64,000 nt of DNA, from the IMG/VR virus record IMGVR_UViG_3300023184_000026, positions 1 through 64,000 of that record, one strand, 5' to 3'. The notes below the pieces were generated by a model that worked only from the letters and a program-made list of their open reading frames with translations, was not told the origin of the DNA and did not search any database. Of this stretch, positions 446 to 58,587 are shown piece by piece; within the stretch, counting starts at the first letter, position 1, and each line of letters starts with the position of its first letter. The stretch comes from a virus. The translations under genes and the position numbers were made by a program.

Positions 446-1664
446 TTCTTCTGGTACATCGGGTTCAAGTGGCGCATCAGGAACAAGTGGTTCGTCTGGC
501 ACAGCTGGAACATCAGGTTCAAGTGGCGCATCAGGAACAAGTGGTTCGTCTGGCACAGCTGGAACAAGTGGCTCTTCTGGTACAAGTGGAACATCTGGTA
601 TAAGTGGCTCTTCTGGTACAAGTGGAACAAGTGGATCGTCTGGAATAAGCGGTTCAAGTGGAACATCTGGTATAAGTGGAACAAGTGGATCGTCTGGAAT
701 AAGCGGCACAGCTGGAACAAGTGGTTCAAGTGGCACAAGCGGTGCCGCAGGAACAAGTGGCTCTTCTGGTACAAGTGGAACAAGTGGATCTTCCGGAATA
801 GGTTTCAATACCATAAACAATGCTGGTGCGGGCAGAGTAATTCTTTCTGATGGCTCTGTTAATGCAGCAACCGCGTCCGCAAATCTTGTATATTCAAACA
901 ATAATTTTTCAATTACTGGCAGTGTTGTTGTAACTGGTTCACTTGCTGTATCCGGAGGTTTTAGTGTTTCTGGCGACAGCGGCAGTGTAATGTTTTCTGG
1001 TAATGCCGATACATTTGAATTTACTGGATCAATGTTGGTGAATGGTAGTATTGTAGTAACAGGCAGTATCAACGGAAATGTTTCTGGTTCATTGTTTGGT
1101 ACATCCAGTTATGCTATAACCGCAGCAACAGCTTCATATGTTCTTAATGCTGTAAGTAGTTCATTTGCTACATCTGCATCATTCTCTCAAACATCAAGTT
1201 TGGCCAGAACAGCCTCTTATATAGCATGGGCAAATGTAGATGAAATAGCAACAGACATATTTGTTGGTACATCAAGTTATGCAACGCTGGCAAGAACAGC
1301 AAGTTATGTAAATAATGCTATATCAGCTTCATATGTTCTGCAATCAGTCAGTGCATCATTTGCTACTACGGCAAGTTATGCAATGAACAGTGGCGCGGGT
1401 GGTACAACTTTAATTTCGGGTTCTACCTACTATATCACCAGCAGTTGGGCACAAACAGCTTCATATGCTAATACAGCAAGTTATATTGTTTGGGCAAATG
1501 TATATGAAAATAATACAGACACATTCTTGGGTACATCAAGTTTTGCTATATCAGCATCATTTGCTATATCAGCTTCGTTTTCACAAACAGCAAGTTATGT
1601 TCTTAATGCAGTAAGTAGTTCATTTGCTATTACATCAAGTTATATTGATGGTGGGTTCTATTAA
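1..1664 (+). CDS. Collagen-like tail fibre, 5' end missing
   Basis: The reading frame is open from base 3 to the stop at 1662-1664, so the gene begins before the window; the ATG at 990 is only an internal Met. The first ~265 residues are Gly-X-Y triplets made almost wholly of G, S, T and A (GTSGSSGTAG type), a collagen-like shaft without proline. From about base 795 it changes to a beta-rich fibre region with short repeats of the type ITGSVVVTGSLAVSG, then GTSSYA/TASYVLNAVSSSFA repeats typical of phage fibre stalks. It ends in YIDGGFY. Neighbouring genes are also adhesins, so a receptor-binding or whisker fibre is likely. No C-terminal chaperone is visible. Family assignment rests on composition and repeat pattern, not on a named domain. 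Confidence 0.85.
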   Translation, partial: GSSGTAGTSGSSGTSGTSGTDGTSGSSGTAGTSGSSGASGTSGSSGTAGTSGISGTAGTSGSSGTSGSSGTSGSSGASGTSGSSGTSGSSGTAGTSGSSGTSGTSGTDGTSGSSGTAGTSGSSGASGTSGSSGTAGTSGISGTAGTSGSSGTSGSSGASGTSGSSGTAGTSGSSGASGTSGSSGTAGTSGSSGTSGTSGISGSSGTSGTSGSSGISGSSGTSGISGTSGSSGISGTAGTSGSSGTSGAAGTSGSSGTSGTSGSSGIGFNTINNAGAGRVILSDGSVNAATASANLVYSNNNFSITGSVVVTGSLAVSGGFSVSGDSGSVMFSGNADTFEFTGSMLVNGSIVVTGSINGNVSGSLFGTSSYAITAATASYVLNAVSSSFATSASFSQTSSLARTASYIAWANVDEIATDIFVGTSSYATLARTASYVNNAISASYVLQSVSASFATTASYAMNSGAGGTTLISGSTYYITSSWAQTASYANTASYIVWANVYENNTDTFLGTSSFAISASFAISASFSQTASYVLNAVSSSFAITSSYIDGGFY

Positions 1665-1701
1665 AAATTGTAATGAAAATAAATAACGTTACATACATTA
1701 T

Positions 1702-4272
1702 ATGCCGCTCACAATAAAAAGAACAAATCCGGTTGCTGCGGGGAATAATAATTTTCAATTTGCAAGAAGAACTTCAACGGCGGTTGGTAATAGTGTGCTT
1801 TTTAATGGAAGTACTCAATATTTGAGTGTTCCTGGTAGTGCGGCGTTTGCATTCGGAACAGGAAGTTTTACTACAGAATGGTGGCAATATATGACCAGTC
1901 AGCCATCAAACCCTCGTGTATTTTCAATAGGAAATTATCCATCTGCAACAATAGGTGTTAGTATAGAAGGTGGTACTTTTTACGTGTGGGAAAATTCTGG
2001 TGTTAGATTTAGTTATTCATTAACAGCGGACGGATATTTAAATCGCTGGTTACATTTTGCAATATCCAGAAATAACGGAACTACTTCAATTTTTAAAAAT
2101 GGAATTCAAATAGGCGCGTCATATCCTGATACTAATAATATCAATAATACTTCTACCACGTTGTCTATTGGTCAAGAAAGTACGCCGACGGCAAATAGTT
2201 ATTTTCCTGGATATATTAGTAACTTCCGTATCTTAAATGGTACTGCACTTTATACAGCATCATTTACAGTACCAACAGCTCCTCTCACGGCCATAGCAAA
2301 CACATCATTGCTTACATGTAATGCTGCTACAATATTTGATAGCAGTACAAACAATTTTACTATTACTAACAACAATGGTGCAACAGTGTCATCAGTTGTA
2401 CCATTTAATGCTATAGGTTATGGATACAAGTTTAAAAATACTAGCAATGTCGCGAGTGTTTTAGCAGGAACACAAAAAGCAATATTTGGGTATGGAAGTA
2501 CAGGAACTAATACAGCAATAACCAATCTTGTAAGTAATACGGGCGTTGTGGCAACTGATACAGCGGGCGTTGGTACAGCTAGATATCATTTAGCAGCAGC
2601 TGGGTATGGAAATGATAAAGCAATATTTGGATATGGGGTTGTTACTACTTATTCGTCGTTGACCAACCTCGTTAGCAACACGGGCGTTGTAGCAACTGAC
2701 ACAACCGGTGTAGGAACTGCGAGAGCATATCTAGCAGCGGCTGGCTATGGTATAGACAAAGCTATTTTTGGATACGGGGCCGACAATTCGAATGCTTTTT
2801 CAATAACCAATAAAGTGAGCAACACTGGCGTTGTAGCAACTGATACAAGCGGTGTTGGTACTGGTAGATATTGGCCAGCGGCGGCGGGCTATGGAATTGA
2901 TAAAGCAATATTTGGATATGGATCTAGCGGTGGTTTTGTTTCAATGACCAATAAAGTGAGCAACACCGGTGTTGTAGCCACAGACACAACGGGTGTAGGA
3001 TCGGCAAGATATAATCTAGCAGCAGCGGGATATGGCACAGACAAAGCACTATTTGGATATGGAGACGCTAATGGCGTCGCTGTTTCAATGACCAATAAAG
3101 TGAGCAACACCGGCATTGTAGCAACCGACACGACGGGGGTGGGGACTTCAAGGCACCAGTTGGCAGCGGCGGGTTATGGGTCAGACAAAGCAATTTTTGG
3201 ATATGGATATACGAGTGTGGTTCTTTCTATGACAAATCTTGTGAGCAACACGGGTGTGGTGTCAACAGACACAACCGGCGTCGGCACTTCAAGATCTGTT
3301 TTAGCGGCGGCAGGTTTTTCAATAACTACAGTACCAGCACCAAGTGGATTAAAATTTAAGAAAGTATTTGCTGATCCTATTACTGTATACTTAACACAAA
3401 AAGCTATATTTGGATATGGAAATAATGGTAGCAATTTATCAATGACCAATCTGGTTAGTAACACAGGTGTTGTAGCAACTGATACGACAGGTGTTGGTAC
3501 AGCAAGAGGATATCTTGCGGCTGCAAGTTACGGAAATGATAAAGCTGTGTTTGGATATGGAGATAATGGCGTTGGTACTTATTATTCAATGACCAATCTC
3601 GTAAGTAACACGGGTGTTGTAGCAAGTGACACAACAGGTGTTGGTACAGCAAGATCGTATCTAGCGGCAGCGGGTTATGGGTCAGACAAATCTATTTTTG
3701 GATATGGATATACGAGTGCCGCTGTTTCAATGACCAATCTTATTAGTAACACCGGCGTTGTATCCACCGATACAACGGGAGTTGGTACAGTAAGAAATAA
3801 TTTAGCAGCGGCTGGTTATGGGACAAATAAAGCTATATTTGGGTATGGAAGCACAACCGGCGGACTTGGAGGTAACGTGTCGGTGACCAATCTTGTTAGT
3901 AACACGGGTGTTGTAGCAACTGATACGACAGGTGTTGGTACAGCAAGACTAGCATTAGCCGCATCAGGTTATGGCACAGACAAAGCTATATTTGGATATG
4001 GACAACAAAGTGGCGGTTATTCATCAATGACCAATCTTGTCAGTAACACAGGTGTGGTAGCAACTGATACGACAGGTGTTGGTACAGTAAGACAAGGATT
4101 AGCCGCAGCAGGTTATGGAAGTGACAAAGCTATATTTGGATATGGAATTGGAGCCGGTGCGGTTTTATCAATGAGCAACCTCGTTAGTAATACCGGAGTT
4201 GTAGCAACAGACACAGCGGGTGTTGGCACAGCAAGACAATATCCAAAAGCAGCGGGTTATTCATTAACATAA
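1702..4272 (+). CDS. LamG-like plus double six-repeat beta-propeller adhesin
   Basis: This 856-residue protein has two parts. Residues ~33-235 look like a concanavalin/LamG jelly-roll (FNGSTQYLSVPG, then FTTEWWQY, WLHFAISRN and the GYISNFRILNGTALY motif common in phage LamG adhesins). Residues ~257-856 hold two blocks, each with exactly six ~47-residue repeats of the form KAIFGYG...TNLVSNTGVVATDTTGVGTAR..LAAAGYG. The blocks are joined by a ~35-residue linker around base 3310-3400, and each ends in a changed last copy (AAGFSIT, AAGYSLT). Six such beta-rich repeats suggest a six-bladed Kelch-like propeller per block. The same repeat block closes the RCC1 protein at 9655-11979. The likely role is a tail-fibre tip or receptor or glycan-binding protein; ligand unknown. 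Confidence 0.75.
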   Translation: MPLTIKRTNPVAAGNNNFQFARRTSTAVGNSVLFNGSTQYLSVPGSAAFAFGTGSFTTEWWQYMTSQPSNPRVFSIGNYPSATIGVSIEGGTFYVWENSGVRFSYSLTADGYLNRWLHFAISRNNGTTSIFKNGIQIGASYPDTNNINNTSTTLSIGQESTPTANSYFPGYISNFRILNGTALYTASFTVPTAPLTAIANTSLLTCNAATIFDSSTNNFTITNNNGATVSSVVPFNAIGYGYKFKNTSNVASVLAGTQKAIFGYGSTGTNTAITNLVSNTGVVATDTAGVGTARYHLAAAGYGNDKAIFGYGVVTTYSSLTNLVSNTGVVATDTTGVGTARAYLAAAGYGIDKAIFGYGADNSNAFSITNKVSNTGVVATDTSGVGTGRYWPAAAGYGIDKAIFGYGSSGGFVSMTNKVSNTGVVATDTTGVGSARYNLAAAGYGTDKALFGYGDANGVAVSMTNKVSNTGIVATDTTGVGTSRHQLAAAGYGSDKAIFGYGYTSVVLSMTNLVSNTGVVSTDTTGVGTSRSVLAAAGFSITTVPAPSGLKFKKVFADPITVYLTQKAIFGYGNNGSNLSMTNLVSNTGVVATDTTGVGTARGYLAAASYGNDKAVFGYGDNGVGTYYSMTNLVSNTGVVASDTTGVGTARSYLAAAGYGSDKSIFGYGYTSAAVSMTNLISNTGVVSTDTTGVGTVRNNLAAAGYGTNKAIFGYGSTTGGLGGNVSVTNLVSNTGVVATDTTGVGTARLALAASGYGTDKAIFGYGQQSGGYSSMTNLVSNTGVVATDTTGVGTVRQGLAAAGYGSDKAIFGYGIGAGAVLSMSNLVSNTGVVATDTAGVGTARQYPKAAGYSLT
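2470..4270 (+). repeat. Twelve ~141-bp repeats in two blocks of six
   Basis: Each unit begins near AAAGCAATATTTGGATATGG (KAIFGYG). Copies diverge mainly in a 6-12 codon loop after FGYG and in silent sites, while the TNLVSNTGVVATDTTGVGTAR core is nearly fixed. A third six-copy block lies at about 11112-11976, so the repeats are substrates for recombination between two adhesin genes. Confidence 0.85.
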
Positions 4273-4371: not shown

Positions 4372-4683
4372 ATGCCGCAGAACATAATACATTTAAGAAG
4401 TTTAGCTACAGGCTCAATACCAACCACAGCATCTCTTGGTGTGGGTCAATTTGCTATCAATGTACCAGATGGTCGTATATTTTTAAGAAAATCCGGCAGT
4501 GTAAGTGATACTATTGAAACTGTATTTACTTCAAATTCAGATAATAGTGGCAGTTTTAGATTAACAGGTAGTTTGAGTATCAGTGGTAGTATATCTGCTG
4601 ATAGCATCGCGGTAAATCTCGACGGAGGAAATCCAAGTAGTGTATATGGTGGTTCAACACCTATAGATGCTGGTCCAGTATAA
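4372..4683 (+). CDS. Small fibre-associated structural protein
   Basis: A 103-residue protein. Its start reads LATGSIPTTASLGVGQFAINVPDGRIFLRKSG, a pattern seen in short tail-fibre-linked proteins of T4-like phages and similar in logic to the MTD-type N terminus of the next gene (GEIGIELDTNKFKIGNG). The second half carries beta-stalk text (GSFRLTGSLSISGSISADS) like the fibre at 1-1664. It is encoded just before the giant collagen-like fibre and is preceded by the ATATTTATA box. It may be a fibre adaptor or attachment subunit, but no specific function can be named. Confidence 0.7.
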   Translation: MPQNIIHLRSLATGSIPTTASLGVGQFAINVPDGRIFLRKSGSVSDTIETVFTSNSDNSGSFRLTGSLSISGSISADSIAVNLDGGNPSSVYGGSTPIDAGPV

Positions 4684-44437: not shown

Positions 44438-45271
44438 ATGGCACCAGTAATCATCGACAATCTACATAAATTTGGCTTGGAATTCCAAGTAAAAATTGTA
44501 GCAAGTATTTTAACTGACAAAGTATTTCTTGAAAGAATATGCGACATTATTGATGTGGATGCTTTTGAAAACGAAGCCCATCAATGGATTCTCAAAGAAA
44601 TTATTCAATATCATATTCAATACAAAGACTTGCCAACACCGCAAGTATTCAAGGTTCGTATTGACACTATTGAAAACGATGCATTCAAATCATCTGTGGT
44701 ACAGCAACTAACACAAGTTTACACAAAAATCAGTGAAAAAGATTTGCAGTTTGTGCGCGAACAATTTCTTGAATTCTGTAAGAATCAAAAGTTGAAGAGT
44801 GCCATTATTGAATCAGTTGATCATCTAAAAACTGGTGAATATGATAAAATAAAGGGGCTGGTTGACAAGGCAATGAAGGCTGGCATGGAACGCAATCTTG
44901 GACACAACTACCATAAAGAAGTTGCTGGTCGTATGAGTGAAATGTGCCGCAAGACTATATCAACGGGTTGGGAAGTCATTGACAGCCTCATGGATGGTGG
45001 TCTTGGACCTGGTGAACTTGGTATTATTGTGGCTCCAGCGGGCATTGGAAAGTGCGTCGGCCCAAACACAAAAATTGATATTCAATATTATGAAACGGGT
45101 ATTCCAATAAAAGGAAATTCTGGCAAAGAATATATACTATGGTTTAAACCATTTGATAAATTTGAGTTTGATGGCAGAATGCTATTTGGTTGGCAAGTTG
45201 ACAATATTTTGTTTGAATTGGAGCAACTAAAGTTGCAGGTGCTGGATTCGGAAAAACAACATAAAAAATGA
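44438..45271 (+). CDS. 41: gp41-like replicative helicase, N-terminal half fused to intein N-fragment
   Basis: 277 residues. Residues 1-205 are the N-terminal domain and start of the RecA-like motor of a DnaB/gp41 helicase (TISTGWEVIDSLMDGGLGPGELGIIVAPAGIGK). The Walker A is broken right after the Lys: residue 206 is Cys (base 45053), opening the intein block A, CVGPNTKIDIQYYETG. The remaining ~70 residues (to EKQHKK) are the N-intein fragment; no block B, no catalytic TxxH, so it cannot splice alone. The completing half is at 46224-47414, with a homing-endonuclease gene between. Trans-splicing would give a ~465-residue helicase, close to T4 gp41 (475). Confidence 0.9.
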   Translation: MAPVIIDNLHKFGLEFQVKIVASILTDKVFLERICDIIDVDAFENEAHQWILKEIIQYHIQYKDLPTPQVFKVRIDTIENDAFKSSVVQQLTQVYTKISEKDLQFVREQFLEFCKNQKLKSAIIESVDHLKTGEYDKIKGLVDKAMKAGMERNLGHNYHKEVAGRMSEMCRKTISTGWEVIDSLMDGGLGPGELGIIVAPAGIGKCVGPNTKIDIQYYETGIPIKGNSGKEYILWFKPFDKFEFDGRMLFGWQVDNILFELEQLKLQVLDSEKQHKK

Positions 45272-45291
45272 AGTTTTTGTGTTAATTGTTG

Positions 45292-45300
45292 ATATTTATT
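45292..45300 (+). promoter_or_regulatory. ATATTTATT box, 4 nt before endonuclease ATG
   Basis: A one-base variant of the ATATTTATA box, with TGGT then ATG at 45305. The selfish gene thus appears to have its own promoter, separate from the helicase halves. Confidence 0.45.
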
Positions 45301-45304
45301 TGGT

Positions 45305-46237
45305 ATGAACATATTAACATGCAAAATTTGCGGATTCTCCGCATCGTCATTAGTTTCTCATATACGTCATAAACATGCTACTAATGGAACCGATTACAAA
45401 ATAAAATTTGGAAACGTCCCATTGTCAGTAATGTCTGATCAACAGAAAAAAAAATTGTCAGACATAAATATAAAAAAATGTAAAGATCCCGCCCATATCA
45501 AACGTATGTCGGATGTACAAAAAATGGGCGGATCAATTTACACCAAATTATATTGGACGACACGAGGATTTTCGGATATAGAAGCCAAGAAAAAAATAAA
45601 AGAAATACAAACTTCAAATTCAAAAAAATCAGTTGCCAAAGGAAATTGGGGGAAGCGATCTTGGATGTTGGTGGAGTATTGGATTTCTAAAGGTTATACC
45701 GAAGATATGGCAAAGACGGAAATTTCTAAAAGACAAGCCAAATTGTCTGCAAAATCTTCAAAATTTTTGGGACATACGCGAACAGCTGAGTCGTGTGAGA
45801 AGATATCGTCGTCCATGCGTAAAAAAATTGATGAAATTGGAACGGGGCAATGGGCTTCTCACTTTGGAAAATTTTCCGGTAGAAGTAAAGCGGAAATAAA
45901 ATTTTATAATTATATTAAAGAAAATATAGAACCCACGGCAACGGCAAATGAACCAATCGGTGCATATATTGTCGATGTCATAGTTAATAAAAAAATAATT
46001 GAATTTTATGGGGATTTTTGGCACGCAAATCCAACTATTTATAAATCAAACGAAATATTAGCCGGTTATATGGAAACACCTCGTTCGGTCCAAGAGATTT
46101 GGAATAAGGATGCGAAAAGAGTGGACACACTTCGAACGATGGGGTATGATGTGCTAGAAGTGTGGGAATCGGATTGGAACGAGCAAAAAAATCAATCAAT
46201 CAACAAAATAAAACAATTTTTATATGGTAATTCGTAA
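45305..46237 (+). CDS. Free-standing Vsr-like homing endonuclease
   Basis: 310 residues. Residues 1-30 hold a zinc-finger-like CKICGFSASSLVSHIRHKH, followed by a MucR-like DYKIKFGNVPLS. The middle has helical DNA-binding repeats (MSDVQKMGGSIYTKLYW; KISSSMRKK). The C-terminal third has the hallmark KIIEFYGDFWHANPTIY, then EIWNKDAKRVDTLRTMGYDVLEVWESDW, the Vsr-type (EDxHD) fold found in homing endonucleases inserted between split-intein halves. It overlaps the C-half gene by 14 bp. Its job would be to cut helicase genes lacking the insertion. Confidence 0.88.
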   Translation: MNILTCKICGFSASSLVSHIRHKHATNGTDYKIKFGNVPLSVMSDQQKKKLSDINIKKCKDPAHIKRMSDVQKMGGSIYTKLYWTTRGFSDIEAKKKIKEIQTSNSKKSVAKGNWGKRSWMLVEYWISKGYTEDMAKTEISKRQAKLSAKSSKFLGHTRTAESCEKISSSMRKKIDEIGTGQWASHFGKFSGRSKAEIKFYNYIKENIEPTATANEPIGAYIVDVIVNKKIIEFYGDFWHANPTIYKSNEILAGYMETPRSVQEIWNKDAKRVDTLRTMGYDVLEVWESDWNEQKNQSINKIKQFLYGNS

Positions 46238-47414
46238 ACGACTAACAACAGAAGAAATTTCTATGAAAGACCTATTTCATAAAATTGGCGTTGAAGATAA
46301 AGAATTGGCAGCATTGACTGTGCCTTTTCCACTATCCGTACATACGCCGTATGGATACAAACACATTGTGACTGCGTTTAGAACGGAGAAACAAAAAACA
46401 GTCACCACGTATTTTAAAAATAATACAACATTGAAAACATCCGATCATCACCAATTAAAAGTTAATGGCGATTGGAAAAAAGTAAAAGATATTATTGAGT
46501 CGGATGTAGTTGAGACAGAATCTGGCACAACCTCCATAAAGAAAAAGCATTATGGAAATGATGAAATATTATATGACATATCAGTTGAGGACGTACATTG
46601 CTATTACAGCAACGGAATTTTATCTCACAACTCGTGGTTACTATGTTCATTGGGTGCCAGAGCAATGAAATCGGGAAAGAATATTGCTCACTTCACACTG
46701 GAACTAAATGAAAATTATGTTGGTCTTCGTTATGATTGTTGTTTTACAGGAATTGAGTTTCAAGAAATTAAACATCGTCAATCCGACGTTGAAGAAAAAA
46801 TCAAAGACATCAAAGGAAAACTTTTTGTAAAGTATTTTCCATTGAAGACAGTAAGTGCTCAATCATTAAAGTTTCATATTGAACGCATACAAGCATTGGA
46901 AGGAATTCATATTGATGAAATGGTGGTTGATTATGCCGACATTTTGCGTCCTCTTGAAAAAGAAACCAACAGCAATAGCTATAGCGAGGCTGGTGGTATA
47001 TATGAAGAACTGCGTCAGGCTGCTGGTGAACTACAGATTCCAGTATGGACTGCTTCACAAACCAATCGCGGCGGTGGTCAAGAAGATGTTGTTCAAGCCC
47101 ATAACATCGCCGATTCATATCGTAAGATCATGACTGCCGACTTTGTGTTGAGTGTTGCCCGTAATACAACAGACAAAGCCAACAACACTGCTCGTTGTCA
47201 TGTTATCAAAAATAGATTTGGACCGGATGGTATTACCTTGTATGCCAATATGAACACCAGCACTGGTCAAATTGATTTGTATGACGCCAAATCCAAAGAA
47301 TCTATGGCAATCCAATCCACTATGGAAGGTGATGATAATAGTGTAAAGAACATGTTGAAAAATAAATGGAACAGTGGTCGCCAAAAGCAAAATGGCGAAA
47401 ACACCAATTTGTAA
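46224..47414 (+). CDS. 41: Intein C-fragment fused to C-terminal half of gp41-like helicase
   Basis: 396 residues. Residues 1-136 are the intein C-fragment: VHTPYGYKHIVTAF, block B-like LKTSDHHQLKV, WKKVKDIIESDVVE, and the terminal blocks DEILYDISVEDVHCYYSNGILSHN with the penultimate His and last Asn. Ser137 (base 46632) is the +1 extein residue and restores Walker A as GIGK-S. Residues 137-396 are the RecA-like motor: Walker B MVVDYADILRPLE, then WTASQTNRGG and an Arg-finger region VIKNRFGPDG. Met14 (46263) is an alternative start. Block B in the C-half shows that the split is near the intein N terminus, unlike canonical split inteins. Confidence 0.9.
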   Translation: MVIRKRLTTEEISMKDLFHKIGVEDKELAALTVPFPLSVHTPYGYKHIVTAFRTEKQKTVTTYFKNNTTLKTSDHHQLKVNGDWKKVKDIIESDVVETESGTTSIKKKHYGNDEILYDISVEDVHCYYSNGILSHNSWLLCSLGARAMKSGKNIAHFTLELNENYVGLRYDCCFTGIEFQEIKHRQSDVEEKIKDIKGKLFVKYFPLKTVSAQSLKFHIERIQALEGIHIDEMVVDYADILRPLEKETNSNSYSEAGGIYEELRQAAGELQIPVWTASQTNRGGGQEDVVQAHNIADSYRKIMTADFVLSVARNTTDKANNTARCHVIKNRFGPDGITLYANMNTSTGQIDLYDAKSKESMAIQSTMEGDDNSVKNMLKNKWNSGRQKQNGENTNL

Positions 47415-50930: not shown

Positions 50931-52307
50931 ATGTACGATAAGATTGAACAAGAACTCACCGAACTTGATGAAAATCTTCATAAATGGTTCAAAGAGAAAT
51001 GGGTAAGATTTGGACCTGATGGCAAGATCCGAGGCGATTGTGCCAGAGAAAAGTCAAGCGAAGGCAAGCCAAAATGCCGTCCATTAAAATCTGCACAAGG
51101 TATGGGTAAAAAAGCCAGAGCAACTGCTGCACGCAGAAAACGCCGTGAAGATCCAAACCCAGACCGTAAAGGTAAAGCAAAGAATGTAAAAACCGAAGAA
51201 ATCACCCCGAAAAATTTTGACAATTTAAATTATATTGGCAACTGCAAGGACGATGATGTGATTGAGCATATTTTTGGTGATGCCACTAATTTTGCCCAAG
51301 CAGTGGAAAAATATGGAAATGAATTTACAGTCAAGGATTTGGTGGTAAAGTATGATCCAGAAGCAGATATTCATAGTTTCTATTACAAGAATAATGAAAT
51401 GAACGAGCACAAATGCCCAATCTGCGGAGGTGAACTTGTATCAGAAGCACTAATGAACGAAAAGAAAGATGCTTGTTATTATAAGGTCAAATCACGCTAC
51501 AAAGTGTGGCCAAGTGCATATGCATCTGGTGCGCTCGTAAAGTGTCGTAAGAAAGGTGCCAAAAACTGGGGTAATAAATCAGAAGGATTTGAAAAAGTTG
51601 ATGAAGCATGTTGGAAAGGCTATCACAAAGATGGTATGAAAACTATGTTTGGTAAAAAATATCCAAACTGCGTTAAAAACGAAGCCGAACAACAACAAGA
51701 AGAACTAGAGGAAAAATGGAGCGAAAAATACAAGAGTAGTATAGATTGCAGTCATCCAAAAGGATTTAGTCAAAAAGCACATTGCCAAGGTCGCAAAAAA
51801 ACTAATGAATCTATTATGAAAAAAGAACAACTAAAAAACCTGATAAGAGAAATGATAGAAGAAATGTATAATGAACAATCCAAGATGCAAGATGAATGCT
51901 TGGAATGTTATGAATCTGCAATGCAAGAAGGAACAAACGAAATTTGGGAAGATTGTTATCGCAAAACTAATTTAGATATGATTCCAGAAGGTGATGAACA
52001 TACATGCGAAGGTGATGAATTTTATGAAATATATGGAGATATGAAATACGACCCGGAAAAAATAGAAGAAGCAGAATATCATGGTCGTAAAGTTAAACTT
52101 GGTGTTCCTATGAAGGGTGATGTAAAAAAATCAAAAGTTTATGTCAAGAACCCAAAAGGTAATGTTGTAAAAGTTAATTTTGGTGATCCAAACATGCGTA
52201 TAAAAAAGAGCAATCCAAAGCGTAGAAAGAGTTTTAGAGCAAGACATAATTGTTCTACGGCAAAAGATAGAACATCGGCAAGATATTGGAGTTGCAGAGC
52301 ATGGTAA
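50931..52307 (+). CDS. Mosaic Cys-rich basic protein made of short phage modules
   Basis: 458 residues, a string of short conserved motifs: FKEKWVRFGPDGKIRGDCA with KPKCRPL (~20-55); CPICGGELVSEAL (~161-175); KKDACYYKVKSRYKVWPSAYASGALVKCRKKGAKNWG (~180-216); DEACWKGYHKDGMK...KYPNCV (~225-250); KYKSSIDCSHPKGFSQKAHCQG (~265-287); an internal tag helix from Met296 (base 51816, MKKEQLKNLIREMIEEMYNE); and a C-terminal RRKSFRARHNCSTAKDRTSARYWSCRAW. I recall several of these from unrelated-length proteins of pelagiphages, cyanophages and giant viruses, all without known function. Paired Cys suggest small metal- or disulphide-held folds; high basic content suggests nucleic acid contact. Confidence 0.75.
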   Translation: MYDKIEQELTELDENLHKWFKEKWVRFGPDGKIRGDCAREKSSEGKPKCRPLKSAQGMGKKARATAARRKRREDPNPDRKGKAKNVKTEEITPKNFDNLNYIGNCKDDDVIEHIFGDATNFAQAVEKYGNEFTVKDLVVKYDPEADIHSFYYKNNEMNEHKCPICGGELVSEALMNEKKDACYYKVKSRYKVWPSAYASGALVKCRKKGAKNWGNKSEGFEKVDEACWKGYHKDGMKTMFGKKYPNCVKNEAEQQQEELEEKWSEKYKSSIDCSHPKGFSQKAHCQGRKKTNESIMKKEQLKNLIREMIEEMYNEQSKMQDECLECYESAMQEGTNEIWEDCYRKTNLDMIPEGDEHTCEGDEFYEIYGDMKYDPEKIEEAEYHGRKVKLGVPMKGDVKKSKVYVKNPKGNVVKVNFGDPNMRIKKSNPKRRKSFRARHNCSTAKDRTSARYWSCRAW

Positions 52308-52414: not shown

Positions 52415-52714
52415 ATGAGTAAAACAAAGAAATATTCAATCAACGAAGTCAAAGACATCATTGATACTTGCTATTCACTCAAGCCCGAAAAGCTATTTAT
52501 GGGCGAATTGAAATGGAAGTATCTTGTACGCAGTGCTTTGCGTGGCAAAAATATTCTGTTGCTTGGACCGGCTGGTCAAGGCAAAACATTGGCAGTTCAA
52601 TGCTTGGTTGATGCGATGGAGGAAGTTATTGAGGAAGAAGTTACGGAAGAACAACTGAATGTGTTTAAAACCGAACCGTCCGTGGTTATTGTAAAAATAG
52701 AAGAAATCAAATGA
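52415..52714 (+). CDS. cobS: CobS-like AAA+ ATPase, N-terminal fragment
   Basis: 99 residues from MSKTKKYSINEVKD (GTG at 52397 is a possible longer start). It ends shortly after Walker A: LLLGPAGQGKTLAVQCLVDAMEE (~residues 51-70), then EEVTEEQLNVFKTEPSVVIVKIEEIK and a stop. The matching continuation, from RPFCPINLGSSQDARA on, is at 53518-54285. Between them lies an opposite-strand GIY-YIG gene. No intein block A or catalytic Cys is present. Cyanophage CobS proteins are single chains with only a dozen residues between Walker A helix and the NLG-x-QD-x-RA motif. Confidence 0.75.
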   Translation: MSKTKKYSINEVKDIIDTCYSLKPEKLFMGELKWKYLVRSALRGKNILLLGPAGQGKTLAVQCLVDAMEEVIEEEVTEEQLNVFKTEPSVVIVKIEEIK

Positions 52715-53468
52715 TCTCTAATTTGAAATTGGATCTGTTATTATGTAACAGTTTATATCTGGTCAATTCTGGATACATAGACAACAAAAATTCATCAACC
52801 CTTTTTGTTCCAACCAATATAATCGTCTCTCCGAACACATTCGTAAATTTATACCGGTTGGCATCTTTTCTTGGGGTAGCCAATTTTATTCCTTGATGAG
52901 ATTCACTCAATCTTTTTTTCATTTTCATGTCCCATAAAATTCCGCGTCTAGATGGCATTATGATTTCTCCCAATTTCAATTTACTTTTCAGCGTGTCAGA
53001 TAGTTTTTTTACTCTAATATCTGTGTCTTTTGTTTTTCCCTTATTCCAGACGGTTGGCCTGTTTCTCAACTTTTTTATTATATTTTCTTTATTTGGATTA
53101 TTGTTATATGTGTCTCCACCTTCTCCACCGATAGTTATATTATAAAGAGGACCATCGTTGGAAATTTTTCTACCTATGACACGTATCAACTCAATTTCCA
53201 ATCTTGATGACTCATCCTTTGTTAAATTTTCATATAATACTTTTACTATTGGGGTGTTCTTACTATCAATAAGTTGTTTTATTTTTGCTCTTATGCAGGT
53301 CCGCGTATCACCCCGTCTCGCTTTTATAAAATGACTATTCCATCTATTATAATTACCCTTTCCTATATAAATTGGCGTTGCTGAAAATTCATGTTCTCCA
53401 TATTTTATATTACAGGGGATTGTTATATCTAATATCACATACACATATTTATTCATTTTAGTTCCCAA
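52707..53468 (-). CDS. GIY-YIG homing endonuclease (antisense insertion)
   Basis: 253 residues on the minus strand. N-terminal GIY-YIG nuclease: KYVYVILDI, PIYIGKGNYNRWNSH (Y-I-G-K-G), and a catalytic-Glu helix SRLEIELIRVIGR, followed by GPLYNITIGGEGGDTY, the loop common in phage GIY-YIG enzymes. The C-terminal part has NUMOD3-like DNA-binding text (RRGILWDMKMKKRLSESHQGIK) and a basic tail. Its stop overlaps the end of the CobS-like N-fragment. It sits exactly in the gap of the split AAA+ gene, so it most likely broke it. Confidence 0.85.
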   Translation of the reverse strand: MGTKMNKYVYVILDITIPCNIKYGEHEFSATPIYIGKGNYNRWNSHFIKARRGDTRTCIRAKIKQLIDSKNTPIVKVLYENLTKDESSRLEIELIRVIGRKISNDGPLYNITIGGEGGDTYNNNPNKENIIKKLRNRPTVWNKGKTKDTDIRVKKLSDTLKSKLKLGEIIMPSRRGILWDMKMKKRLSESHQGIKLATPRKDANRYKFTNVFGETIILVGTKRVDEFLLSMYPELTRYKLLHNNRSNFKLEII

Positions 53469-53517
53469 GTTGATGTAAAAATAAATATAAAACGATTATA
53501 CCAAAACATTAAATTTT

Positions 53518-54285
53518 ATGAAAAAATACAAGATAAAATATAAAAAAAGAAGACCTTTTTGTCCAATAAATTTGGGGAGTTCTCAGGACGCCCGCGCAAT
53601 TTTAATTGGAAACACTCAGTTCTCCAAAGAGACGGGAACATTTTTTCAGGAGTCTCCATTTGTGAAAGCCATTTTAACTCCAAATTCGATCATCATGCTT
53701 GACGAGTTAAGCCGTGCAAATCCAGACGCCGTGAATATATTGATGCCCGTCCTTGATAACCAGAGATACTTGAGATTGGATGAGTGGGGCGGGAAGATCG
53801 TAAAGGTAGCAGAAGGCGTCTGTTTCATTGCCACGGCAAATATTGGCAATGATTATACCGCTACACGAGTCATGGACAAAGCTTTGACCGATCGTTTCAC
53901 GGTTAAGATTGAAGTTGATATTCTTTCTTCTGAAGAAGAACTGAAGTTGATAAAGGTGGTTTGTCCTGATGCCGATATTCATCTCATGGACAAGATTGCA
54001 CAAATTGCTGCTACAACTCGTGAGTTTACAAAGCAAGGAAAGTTGAGTCGTTTTGTTTCTACTCGTTCTGTTGTAGAAATGGCCGAACTTACCGTGGATG
54101 GATTTAGCTTGGTAGAGTTGGCTGAAATGGTCATTTACCCCGACTATCCAGACGATGGTGGTTTGGACAGTGAACGCACAATGGTCAAACAAGTTGTACA
54201 AAAACATGTTGCGGTCAAAGCCGATCCATTGAACAAAGTGTTCAACACAAACAAACAGAATAAAGACGATTTGCCCCCGTTTTGA
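53518..54285 (+). CDS. cobS: CobS-like AAA+ ATPase, C-terminal fragment
   Basis: 255 residues. Residues 1-15 (MKKYKIKYKKRRPFC) are a Lys-rich start unlike the rest. From ~16 the MoxR/CobS pattern is full: INLGSSQDARAILIGNTQFSKETGTFFQESPFVKAI, Walker B IIMLDELSRANPDAVNILMPVLDN (~58-80), sensor 1 CFIATANIGNDYTATRVMDKALTDRF (~102-128), and sensor 2 region KLSRFVSTRSVVEMAEL. Walker A is on the separate fragment at 52415. Lacking Walker A, it can act only if the two parts assemble. The next gene overlaps it and encodes the VWA partner. Confidence 0.8.
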   Translation: MKKYKIKYKKRRPFCPINLGSSQDARAILIGNTQFSKETGTFFQESPFVKAILTPNSIIMLDELSRANPDAVNILMPVLDNQRYLRLDEWGGKIVKVAEGVCFIATANIGNDYTATRVMDKALTDRFTVKIEVDILSSEEELKLIKVVCPDADIHLMDKIAQIAATTREFTKQGKLSRFVSTRSVVEMAELTVDGFSLVELAEMVIYPDYPDDGGLDSERTMVKQVVQKHVAVKADPLNKVFNTNKQNKDDLPPF

Positions 54286-56297
54286 TGAAAACAAAAATTT
54301 TAGCAGATCATTCCAAGTTTTGGCTTGGCGACGATTTCAATACTCAAAAGTTTGATGCCAGTTCCACAATGGCGTTGCTGAAACTTTCGGCATATCGCCG
54401 TGCTATTGGCAACTTTGTATATATTCTTACTGGAAAGAACATTCCTGTTCGTTTCGCCGAGAACTCAACATCCATGACTGATGGTAAAGTTATTTACATT
54501 GGTGGTGAATTGACCAAGGGTGAATTTGATCCAACGGTTGGATTGTCGTTGCACGAAGCCATGCATATTGTCAAAAGCGACTTTGACTTGATCAAGACCA
54601 TGTGGGGAAAAATTCCTCGCAGTTTGACTGCTGCTGCAAAAGGTCATTTTGATCAAAACTATATTAGTGAATTGGCGAAATATATTCTCAATGTAGTTGA
54701 AGATAGATATATTGATGCATGTGCATATGAAAGTGCACCGGGCTATCGTGGATATTATCAAGCATTATATGACCGTTATTTCAATCTGCCCGAAATTGGT
54801 GAAGCATTGAAGTCCGATGCTTATAGAAATGCTACTGTCAAAAACTATAAGTTTCGTTTCACCAATATCACCAATGTTAATACCGACTTGGATGCCTTAC
54901 CAGCTTTGCGTAAGATTGGTGAACTATTGGATTTAAATAATATTCTGAGGACTGAACTTGAGAATCCAAAGAACCGCTTAGAACTTGCGTATGAAATCAC
55001 AGAAGAAATACTCAAGAGTGTTGTAGAAGAAACAGAAAATCCCAAGCAACAAGACAAAAATAAAGACAATCAAGATAAGCAATCTGGCGGTGATGAACCA
55101 TCCGATGATAAATCAGAACAGTCAGATTCCAACGATGATGTTGATGATGTATTGGGAGGTACGCCTTCTTCTGCCAATCCTATTCAAGACGATGCTGATG
55201 AAACACCGGATGAAAATCCGTCTAAAGATTTGTCCAACGCCGAAAAGAAAAAGGTCGATAAACTCATTGAGAAACAAGAACAAATTGTTACACGCGAAGT
55301 CAAGCAATCTGCATTTGATAAAGATACAATCAAAAAACTTCAAATCCTTGAACAAAGCTCCGTTGATATTGTACAGGTGGGAGATGAAACTGTTCCAAAG
55401 GTTGATTGTATTGTGGTAAAAAACATGACTCGTGAACTCATGATGACATCGGAATTTCCTTACACCAGCAAGTTTTCTCGCGAAACTGGAAATCCCGCTT
55501 CTACGCGAGGAGTACAGCAGGGAATTATTATCGGAACCATGCTTGGTAGAAAATTGCAAATTCGCAGTGAAGTAAAAACCACAAAATTTACTCGCCTACA
55601 AAAAGGTAAGATTGATAAACGTTTGTTGGCATCTATTGGATTTCAAGGAGAAAATTTGTTTTACCAAACCACCACAGACAAATATAAGAATGCTCATTTG
55701 CATGTAACTGTGGATGCTTCTTCTTCAATGGAAACAAAGTGGGAAAAAACAATGACAACACTTGTTGCAATTGCGAAGGCTGTTAGTATGATCAGTAATG
55801 TAAATTTGAGTATTTCATTTAGAAGTGGAGTTTCTAAAGATCGTGGTGGATATGAAACTCCTTATATTGTTTTGGCATATGATTCGCGTAAAGACAAGTT
55901 CAATAAGATTGTTCAATTATTTCCATTGTTATTTCCACATGGTTCTACTCCAGAAGGACTTGCATTTCAGGCAATTATCAAGCATATTCCTGCTTCTACA
56001 CATGAAATGGATAGTTATTTTGTAAATCTGTCTGATGGCGAACCTGCATTTGGTGTGAGTTATTATGGAAACGTCGCAGCAGAACACACAAAGAAGCAAA
56101 TAAATAAAATTCGTGAAATTGGCGTATCTGTTTTGAGCTATTTTGTTGAATGTAATAATACAAACAGCAAACTTTCTGAGAAAAATTCCAACTTGTTTCG
56201 TACCATGTATGGCAAAGATGCACAATTCGTTGATGTTCAGAATGTTGTGCAGATTGCTCATACATTGAATAAAATGTTTCTTTCTAAAGAAAGTTGA
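54285..56297 (+). CDS. CobT-like VWA protein with metallopeptidase-like motif
   Basis: ~670 residues; ATG at 54285 overlaps the previous stop (a TTG at 54282 could also start it). The N-terminal domain has LSLHEAMHIVKS (~residue 90), an HExxH motif, with a second acidic cluster ILNVVEDRYIDACAY ~55 residues later, the pattern of a gluzincin-type metallopeptidase. A long acidic Asp/Ser/Gln linker spans ~255-325. A VWA domain follows with MIDAS residues: VDASSSMETKW (~478), then a Thr in LFPHGSTPEG and NLSDGEP. AAA+ (CobS/MoxR) and VWA (CobT) proteins work as pairs in chaperone- or chelatase-like remodelling. Its target is unknown. Confidence 0.75.
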   Translation: MKTKILADHSKFWLGDDFNTQKFDASSTMALLKLSAYRRAIGNFVYILTGKNIPVRFAENSTSMTDGKVIYIGGELTKGEFDPTVGLSLHEAMHIVKSDFDLIKTMWGKIPRSLTAAAKGHFDQNYISELAKYILNVVEDRYIDACAYESAPGYRGYYQALYDRYFNLPEIGEALKSDAYRNATVKNYKFRFTNITNVNTDLDALPALRKIGELLDLNNILRTELENPKNRLELAYEITEEILKSVVEETENPKQQDKNKDNQDKQSGGDEPSDDKSEQSDSNDDVDDVLGGTPSSANPIQDDADETPDENPSKDLSNAEKKKVDKLIEKQEQIVTREVKQSAFDKDTIKKLQILEQSSVDIVQVGDETVPKVDCIVVKNMTRELMMTSEFPYTSKFSRETGNPASTRGVQQGIIIGTMLGRKLQIRSEVKTTKFTRLQKGKIDKRLLASIGFQGENLFYQTTTDKYKNAHLHVTVDASSSMETKWEKTMTTLVAIAKAVSMISNVNLSISFRSGVSKDRGGYETPYIVLAYDSRKDKFNKIVQLFPLLFPHGSTPEGLAFQAIIKHIPASTHEMDSYFVNLSDGEPAFGVSYYGNVAAEHTKKQINKIREIGVSVLSYFVECNNTNSKLSEKNSNLFRTMYGKDAQFVDVQNVVQIAHTLNKMFLSKES

Positions 56298-56367: not shown

Positions 56368-58587
56368 ATGATTATCACACAAGAAAAATCCTCACCAGTC
56401 ATCAGCAATATTCTTTCTGCGCCGACTCGTTTCAAGATCAAGGCGTCTGCCAAGGCGTTCAAGATTTTGTCTGGTTTTTATAGCGAACCAATTCTCGCCA
56501 TTCCACGTGAACTTGGTGCCAATGCGTGGGACAGTCATGTCAAGGCCAAGAACACCGACAAGATGTTTGAGGTTCATGCACCCAACACACTGGAGCCCTG
56601 GTTCAGTGTTCGTGACTTTGGCACTGGTTTGACCCCAGAAGCTATTGACACTATCTATACTACATATTTTGAGTCCACAAAGACTGCTGATAATGATAGT
56701 GATGGTTGCATGGGACTGGGTAGCAAGACTCCGTTCAATTATACCGACAATTTCAATGTAACTTCTTTCTATAAGGGTAAGAAGCATGTTTACAACTGCT
56801 TTATTGATGAGTCTGGTTCGCCCAGCATTCTGCATGTTGTTACACAAGATTCTAATGAACATAATGGTGTAGAAATCAAGTTTGGTGTTAAGATTGGTGA
56901 TATTAGTATGTGGGTAGACAAGATTGTTCGTGCATATGAACCGTTTCGTTATCGTCCAACCATTGTTGGTGCCAATCTTGAATATAAGCCGCGTGAATAT
57001 ATCTATACTGGAAAGAGTTGGTCTATGCGCAAGAATGATGGCGGCTATTATAACCGTGGATGCAATGCGTTCATGGGCAACTATTGCTATCCTATCAACA
57101 CCAGTGCTTTGCGCAATGCTTTGCGCAATGTTCCCAATAACGATGCTTACAATATTGAACAAGCGTTGAACTATGGCAACTTTGACTTTTTCTTTGATAT
57201 TGGTGAACTGGAAGTTGCGCCCAATAAAGAACAGCTTCAGTATGAAGACAACAATGCTACTACGCTTGCTATTATTTCTGTACTACGAACTGCTGTGGCT
57301 GAACTAAAAGATATGGTTTATAAGAGCATTGAAACTCCCAAGAGTCGTTGGGAAGCTATGCATCTATACGCCAAATATAATGGCTACCAAAGTCAATATA
57401 GCCATATTCGTAATATCATTGGTGATATTCCAATCAAGTATAATGGATTGAATGTAACTCATGGCAGTGAAAATATCAATACTGTTCATAAAGCAACTGG
57501 AGCATTTGACTCAACAACCAATGTTGTTAGTGTATTTACGGTGTATATGCTTGATAGCGTCACTGGTCGTTTCAAGCGCACTTCAAATTATAGTACGTAT
57601 TCTGAAAACCGTGGTGTAGATATTTTTTATACAAATCTTTCCGCAATCAAGAGTGCTCGGCTGCGATATCACTTGCGTACAAAGTATGCTACTGGAGTAT
57701 TTCCGACTTGCTATATCATCACCGATGAATCCAAGAACAATGATACATTCAATAAGCATATGAATTATTTTGGTTGGAACAAAAATATTGTCACCAATAT
57801 TGAGTCTCTGCCCAAACCTCCGCCAACACCGCGTCAAAAAAAGACCGCTGGTACTGACGAAATTTTCTATGCAGATATCAGTGAGTTTATCAAGCCAACA
57901 AAGAAGCACCATAATGGAGCATATGTTTATTTTGGTAAAAAAGCCGCTACATTTGATTCTGCTGGTACATATTATTATGTTGATTTCTTTTATGCCGATC
58001 CTGTTTGGAACAATGGTAAGAATATTGAAGATCATATGTCTGAAGCTGTAAAATTGTTTGTAGACAACAAGCTCAATGGTTCTGAAACCATTATTTATGG
58101 CATCAATGTAAAGAACAAAAACTTGCTCAAGATTGGCAAATGGATCAATATTTTTGATGTTGTAAAGAAAGTTGTGCATGCTGACAAAGCCAAACATGAA
58201 CAAGATTTGTATCGCATGCAAAGTCGTGCTAAGTTTGAAACAGTCAGCGGTATTTATAACAAACTTACTCGCTGCCCGCAAATCGTGAGCAATATTACAA
58301 ACATTGACACTCGCAAAAAGTTCCAAACATTTGTAAAATCTTATAGCGAACTGCTCAAAGATAGTTCCAACAATGTCAAGTTTTTAGAATTGTTTGACAT
58401 CAGAGCAAATAAACATACCGAGTTGGATATTGATCCAACTGAGTTCAAGAAAATGTTGACTGAAAAGTATCTTGGTGTGTTCGATATTGGAGAACACTAC
58501 TCCACAGTTTCTGCACCGATTTATAAAATCATCAACTTTATTGACGAAAATTTTATTGACGAAAATTTTATTGACGAAAATAGCTAA
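56368..58587 (+). CDS. rIIA: rIIA-like protein (GHKL ATPase)
   Basis: 739 residues (T4 rIIA 725). The N-terminal GHKL/HATPase fold shows the N-box IPRELGANAWDSH (~50-60), the G1-box VRDFGTGLTPEAIDTIY (~83-100), and CMGLGSKTPFNYTDNFN (~115-130). The rest is rIIA-like, with Lys/Asn/Tyr-rich sequence. The C terminus ends in a three-fold IDENF repeat (bases ~58540-58584, 15-bp units). In T4, rIIA and rIIB protect against exclusion systems (such as lambda Rex) and affect lysis timing. It is followed by rIIB, which supports the call. Confidence 0.85.
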   Translation: MIITQEKSSPVISNILSAPTRFKIKASAKAFKILSGFYSEPILAIPRELGANAWDSHVKAKNTDKMFEVHAPNTLEPWFSVRDFGTGLTPEAIDTIYTTYFESTKTADNDSDGCMGLGSKTPFNYTDNFNVTSFYKGKKHVYNCFIDESGSPSILHVVTQDSNEHNGVEIKFGVKIGDISMWVDKIVRAYEPFRYRPTIVGANLEYKPREYIYTGKSWSMRKNDGGYYNRGCNAFMGNYCYPINTSALRNALRNVPNNDAYNIEQALNYGNFDFFFDIGELEVAPNKEQLQYEDNNATTLAIISVLRTAVAELKDMVYKSIETPKSRWEAMHLYAKYNGYQSQYSHIRNIIGDIPIKYNGLNVTHGSENINTVHKATGAFDSTTNVVSVFTVYMLDSVTGRFKRTSNYSTYSENRGVDIFYTNLSAIKSARLRYHLRTKYATGVFPTCYIITDESKNNDTFNKHMNYFGWNKNIVTNIESLPKPPPTPRQKKTAGTDEIFYADISEFIKPTKKHHNGAYVYFGKKAATFDSAGTYYYVDFFYADPVWNNGKNIEDHMSEAVKLFVDNKLNGSETIIYGINVKNKNLLKIGKWINIFDVVKKVVHADKAKHEQDLYRMQSRAKFETVSGIYNKLTRCPQIVSNITNIDTRKKFQTFVKSYSELLKDSSNNVKFLELFDIRANKHTELDIDPTEFKKMLTEKYLGVFDIGEHYSTVSAPIYKIINFIDENFIDENFIDENS

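Follow-up and report, generated by a model that had tools for sequence, protein, structure and literature searches.

A phage MoxR-type AAA+ ATPase gene in two pieces, split within its ATP site by a GIY-YIG endonuclease gene and probably kept in working order by matching tails

The window analyzed here is a stretch of 64,000 nucleotides, which forms part of a 297,258-bp virus record (IMGVR_UViG_3300023184_000026, positions 1 to 64,000). It contains a MoxR/CbbQ-type AAA+ ATPase gene that is broken into two ORFs, with an endonuclease gene on the opposite strand between them and a putative partner gene downstream (Table 1). The motif set of the family, that is, Walker A, Walker B, the sensors, and the Arg finger, is present but divided between two polypeptides, and each half has retained its motifs, as the original prediction had described. 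The N half carries Walker A (GPAGQGKT), its residues 1-68 being native ATPase sequence, while the 255-residue C half contains Walker B (IIMLDE), sensor 1 (ATANIG), the arginines of DRF and STR, the lid domain, sensor-2-like residues, and a CbbQ-type C-terminal domain. The closest solved structures are those of NorQ and CbbQ.

Table 1. Features of the split ATPase locus, in window coordinates
Feature	Position	Strand	Description
N half, MoxR/CbbQ-type AAA+ ATPase	52415..52714	+	Pfam P-loop families; 99 aa from first conserved ATG
Acidic C-terminal tail of N half	52619..52711	+	residues 69-99, EEVIEEEVTEEQLNVFKTEPSVVIVKIEEIK, net charge -7
Antisense GIY-YIG endonuclease gene	52707..53468	-	Pfam PF22945 E 5e-6; PHROG 314 E 9e-13
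C half, AAA+ ATPase	53518..54285	+	AAA_5 E 2.7e-11; CbbQ_C E 1.2e-5
Basic N-terminal tail of C half	53518..53553	+	MKKYKIKYKKRR, net charge +8
Partner gene	54285..56297	+	HEAMH metallopeptidase-like motif, then vWA-like region with MIDAS DASSS
Divergent cassette (co-conversion tract), approximate boundaries	52605..53857	.	sliding identity, window vs L008/L009 and L004

The intact allele L009, a single ORF of 317 aa, is 96% identical to the window over residues 1-70 and 86% over residues 68-317. The two window ORFs jointly cover this single ORF, and the split is therefore not a chance arrangement. No second copy of the ATPase was found in the 297-kb record. The start of the C half has an A/T-rich context, as have other genes of the window, and lacks a Shine-Dalgarno sequence, as do 34 of the 35 window genes checked; the presence of a Shine-Dalgarno-like sequence at just one of these starts suggests a host that does not rely on this signal. 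The heptamer TATTTAT precedes 8 of 43 gene starts at a distance of no more than 30 bp (for example, those at 4372, 19047, 30929, 37482, 45305, and 60369), with 0.7 expected from shuffled upstream regions and 0.4 from its overall density, and is a candidate promoter or start signal. It is also found upstream of the sense-strand endonuclease genes in the related contigs L012 and L033.

The antisense ORF is matched by the PHROG 314 family "homing endonuclease", and its match to the Pfam family LEM-3_GIY-YIG falls just below the cut-off. Its first four residues may be untranslated, the first ATG being at 53456. The 3' end of the gene overlaps the final 8 bp of the N half, and 49 bp separate the endonuclease ORF from the start of the C half, in line with the earlier description of the gap as this gene plus some 50 bp. 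We found no close relative of the antisense gene in viral_contigs, and the window is the sole allele seen to carry it.

The partner gene has no Pfam match. It adjoins the ATPase gene in most relatives, and the order is the same in split and intact alleles. Judged by its HEAMH and DASSS motifs, it would form with the ATPase a match to the MoxR-vWA/metallopeptidase chaperone pair of jumbo phages, for which a role in virion assembly has been proposed (PMC7824862). Directly after the pair lies a homologue of the RIIA lysis inhibitor (56368-58587, PHROG 612, E 3e-96). The second split ATPase gene that had been reported within 10 kb is also real: it encodes a DnaB-like helicase (44438-47414), lies 8 kb upstream, and is interrupted at Walker A by a split intein (GIGK/C ... 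HN/S), with a DUF559/MTES_1575-type nuclease gene between the halves (45305-46237), i.e., a Dassa-type fractured gene. At the DNA level, the segment 46000-58600 yielded a single match, 47 bp at 51504-51550 that are 91.5% identical to Synechococcus phages Syn19 and Syn2 and fall within a short conserved protein motif of the ORF 50931-52307.

Comparison with intact relatives, which had been suggested as a means of placing the junction, was made by scanning viral contigs with the C half, giving 20 loci. The gene is a single ORF with an empty site in L008-L011, phages that match the window flanks with a DNA identity of up to 97-98% (somewhat less for L010 and L011), the vWA gene being 97% identical in the intact-allele phages of the same species level. 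The gene is broken at the same point as in the window in 14 contigs (L004-L007, L012-L017, L021-L023, and L033). In broader scans, 89 of 115 loci, a total that includes many repeats of the same contigs, read through the site as one intact ORF, so that the split is confined to one clade. Apart from repeats of the split contigs, the non-intact loci are accounted for by L208, which is chimeric, L219, whose Walker A is divergent, and L223, a contig that is cut. L208 was considered as a further split and rejected: at 1500-3100 of this very-low-coverage MAG contig, the ATPase C half is fused to unrelated genes, including an integrase-like ORF, probably as a chimera.

The 14 other split contigs, which represent three lineages, have in the gap a sense-strand GIY-YIG/NUMOD3 ORF; its sequence was read in L004, L006, L012, and L033, of which the remaining contigs are near-copies. 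This gene belongs to a different subfamily from the antisense gene, and the window gap shows neither DNA similarity to it nor residual DNA of it. The proposal that the antisense gene made the split is accordingly not supported and probably wrong: the sense-strand gene occupies the same point in all 14 contigs, and the window is nested among their alleles on the cassette tree described below. Since the relatives hold this different gene at the same split point, the antisense gene is, by parsimony, probably a later replacement; and since both branches of the earliest divergence within the split clade include the sense-strand endonuclease, this gene was probably the original one. Phages are known in which one endonuclease has taken the place of another while the site stayed fixed (PMC10448857). 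A hairpin just upstream of the start of the sense-strand gene was considered and found unconvincing (fold z-scores of -0.3, -1.1, and -2.4).

The main clue to how the split gene works, absent from the original prediction, is a pair of conserved tails at the break. Every split N half ends in 31 extra residues, and every split C half begins with about 12-14 extra residues ahead of the conserved (R/K)P...NLG strand; both are missing from the intact alleles. The tails evolve as protein. The N tail is ungapped over its 31 codons in four lineages, with frame 0 alone open, and the C tail can be aligned across the same four lineages. Profiles built without the window match its N tail at E 9e-12 and have its C tail as top match, although weakly (E 0.063). 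Both tails show an excess of synonymous changes, with Fisher p values of 0.006 and 1.5e-5 for the N tail in two sets of pairs and of 0.003-0.04 for the window C tail (0.003 against L012), tests that rest on few codons, the tails being short.

The net charges of the two tails are opposite in all four lineages, -6 to -7 for the N tail and +6 to +8 for the C tail. When 12-mers were scanned in 17 large window proteins, a charge of +8 occurred nowhere else, and 0.2% reached +5. In the alleles with the sense-strand endonuclease, the C tail shares its DNA with the 3' end of the endonuclease gene, read in another frame; in the window the tail is kept though it overlaps no endonuclease gene end. The tails thus appear to persist in the window after loss of the original endonuclease gene, and the pattern of conservation indicates that these additions at the break are kept by selection. 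No such tails were found beside related endonucleases in 75 other loci. The acidic tails of L033 and L004 weakly resemble FluMu_N of Mu-like phages over the latter half of that domain (PF17891 positions 26-48, E 0.0035 and 0.014, below the cut-off), and EVTEEQL is shared with Mu gp35. The idea that the tails are a split, permuted FluMu_N-like mini-domain was nevertheless set aside as a weak lead, because the matches are below the cut-off and the C tail has none.

The manner in which the split allele reached the window phage is suggested by the DNA around the break. Compared with the intact alleles of the same phages, the identity falls sharply near one cassette boundary and recovers near the other, the surrounding DNA being 97-98% identical; abrupt boundaries are also seen in L004. 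In a tree of the 97 residues adjoining the junction, all split alleles form one clade (support 99/93, present in all 200 bootstrap trees), whereas a tree of the next 112 residues requires five changes of the split/intact label. For the distal segment, monophyly of the split alleles is rejected by the AU test (p 7e-64); for the junction segment, the same test rejects trees in which the window and L004 join the intact alleles from their phage group (p 1e-5). The conflict between the two trees, together with the drop and recovery of identity, is what homing with co-conversion predicts, and the split allele appears to have spread in this way.

Both halves are under strong purifying selection while split. 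In the cassette, the C half of the split alleles has pS of 0.78-0.97 and pN of 0.07-0.14, its synonymous sites being near saturation, with pN/pS of 0.08-0.16, similar to the 0.05-0.31 of the intact alleles; the N half gives 0.23-0.31. The split alleles being one clade in the cassette, most of the measured divergence post-dates the split, and the low ratios over this divergence therefore show that the gene is not decaying. The original prediction had left two outcomes, a working assembly or a dying gene, and had named decay of one half in relatives among the observations that would refute it. Neither half has a stop or a frameshift in any of the four lineages, and assembly is clearly favored.

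The notion that the split inactivated the ATPase, leaving decaying remnants of a dispensable function, can appeal to a gene broken in two with each half missing part of the ATP site. It is largely refuted by this selection analysis, and the lack of a spare ATPase copy in the record and a C-half start context that resembles those of other genes speak against it as well, such that we regard it as very improbable. It is slightly harder still to credit that the halves are retained for separate new jobs. The halves are indeed separate ORFs, and the one with the P-loop has a size that would suit a regulator, but each contributes part of the catalytic residues of a single active site, all of them conserved, neither makes up a full AAA+ fold by itself, and the gene order with the vWA partner is unchanged by the split. 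An assembly artefact joining different phages might be suspected from the antisense gene, found in one contig only, and from the abrupt identity change at both cassette ends. However, neither the endonuclease ORF nor either tail is damaged, all three lie close together, the same split recurs in fourteen other contigs, and like boundaries in L004 are expected from co-conversion; we give this possibility hardly any weight.

Somewhat more serious, though still improbable, is the alternative that the gap is a self-splicing group I intron with an embedded endonuclease gene, whose spliced mRNA would encode a continuous ATPase. Large phages often carry group I introns with such genes, short examples of about 206 nt being found in Bacteroides jumbo phages (PMC12363816), and gene fragments of ICP1 are spliced (PMC10448857). 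Rfam scans of the gap at gathering and permissive thresholds found no group I intron core, nor was there a match elsewhere in the window or in the relatives, but the power of the scan is limited, since the permissive control found the T4 nrdB intron and missed the td intron with its inserted endonuclease ORF. A stronger argument comes from what the split alleles share. The sequence common to all of them consists of the tails only (about 135 nt), which evolve as protein; the remainder of the gap has been exchanged wholesale in the window, with no DNA similarity; and the non-endonuclease sequence outside native ATPase codons amounts to less than 180 nt, most of it tail codons. The earlier statement that no intein is present also stands: the tails, of 31 and about 13 aa, have lengths that exclude a split intein, there is no Cys/Ser at the N junction and no HN at the C junction, and no intein profile matches. 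Ribosome bypass as in T4 gene 60 was likewise rejected, given a gap of 803 nt, differing frames, and a stop codon.

We therefore return to the reading of a gene that works in pieces, which we hold with good, if not complete, confidence. A MoxR-type AAA+ gene of a phage would have received a sense-strand GIY-YIG homing endonuclease gene at the loop that links the post-Walker A helix to the strand behind it, giving two separately translated ORFs and adding one tail to each, a step supported by the observed single clade of split alleles, the shared tails, and the empty sites. The split allele would then have homed into related phages, taking along some 250-300 bp from the C half but only a small part of the N half, and in the window lineage an unrelated antisense GIY-YIG gene would, by parsimony, have replaced the original, both halves and their tails staying under selection. 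The halves have thus probably long been kept in working order by gaining matching tails, despite the endonuclease swap.

Because Walker A and Walker B of a single ATP site now lie on different polypeptides, an active subunit must contain both chains. We infer that they assemble through the tails into a single AAA+ subunit with ATPase activity. Charge and conservation suggest a contact between an acidic helix plus strand in the N tail and a basic strand in the C tail, which would bridge the two halves at the loop leading from the Walker A helix to the following strand. AlphaFold models of each half as a single chain are modest (pLDDT 73 and 63), with a helix in the N tail at residues 78-86 and a poorly folded isolated C half, and as models they fit tail-mediated assembly. 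The rebuilt ATPase would act with its vWA/metallopeptidase partner as a chaperone, perhaps in virion assembly. The assembly of the two fragments of Aeh1 NrdA (NrdA-a and NrdA-b), as reportedly described by Crona in 2011, needs new C- and N-terminal tails. We put forward more tentatively, as an idea with somewhat less than an even chance of being right, that the endonuclease-plus-tails cassette is a mobile element needing neither intron nor intein, in which the two tails are under selection as a docking module and render the fission of an important ATPase harmless, so that the split can be transmitted by homing and outlive its endonuclease.

To our knowledge, only a few genes have been shown to keep their function after a split by a free-standing endonuclease, and the origin and evolution of fragment-joining tails have been studied mainly in one phage. 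The present locus offers a natural experiment: the split is represented by four lineages that have diverged, one of them apparently without the original endonuclease, and unsplit alleles occur in the same group of phages. Selection acting on the tails can thereby be told apart from that acting on the endonuclease gene. Since the break lies inside an AAA+ ATP site, the locus also allows an easy check on whether a ring ATPase can function when split. A literature search of partial coverage found no earlier report of this case.

The kind of system is already known from Aeh1 nrdA/mobE, the T4 topoisomerase, and the phage 25 polymerase. According to one account (PMC2988022), Aeh1 NrdA, split by mobE, is active, T4 gene 60/39 (mobA) and phage 25 gene 43A/43B (seg43) are split genes with assembling products, and gp43A/B of Aeromonas phage 25 copurify and work; the enzymes and endonucleases of the T4 and phage 25 systems differ from those found here. 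Dassa-type fractured genes (Dassa 2009) likewise have two gene halves with an endonuclease gene between them, but they use split inteins, in place of which the ATPase has its short tails. As in the jumbo-phage MoxR-vWA pair (PMC7824862), the AAA+ gene of our locus precedes a gene that combines HExxH with a vWA-like region; the difference lies in the split, seen in this clade only, the gene in the 89 other loci reading through as one ORF. The closest likeness is to Aeh1 nrdA/mobE (NrdA-a/NrdA-b; Friedrich 2007, Crona 2011, the latter cited in PMC3267527), where a free-standing endonuclease gene also splits an enzyme gene into two ORFs and the product works as two polypeptides, which for the ATPase we infer. 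That case involves an HNH endonuclease and a reductase, whereas here a GIY-YIG endonuclease is combined with an AAA+ ATPase split inside its ATP site, the tails are conserved over four diverged lineages, the split allele has apparently moved between lineages, and one lineage has probably exchanged its endonuclease for an antisense one. What is new is thus the protein class, the break inside the ATP site, the spread between lineages, and the persistence of the tails after the endonuclease exchange.
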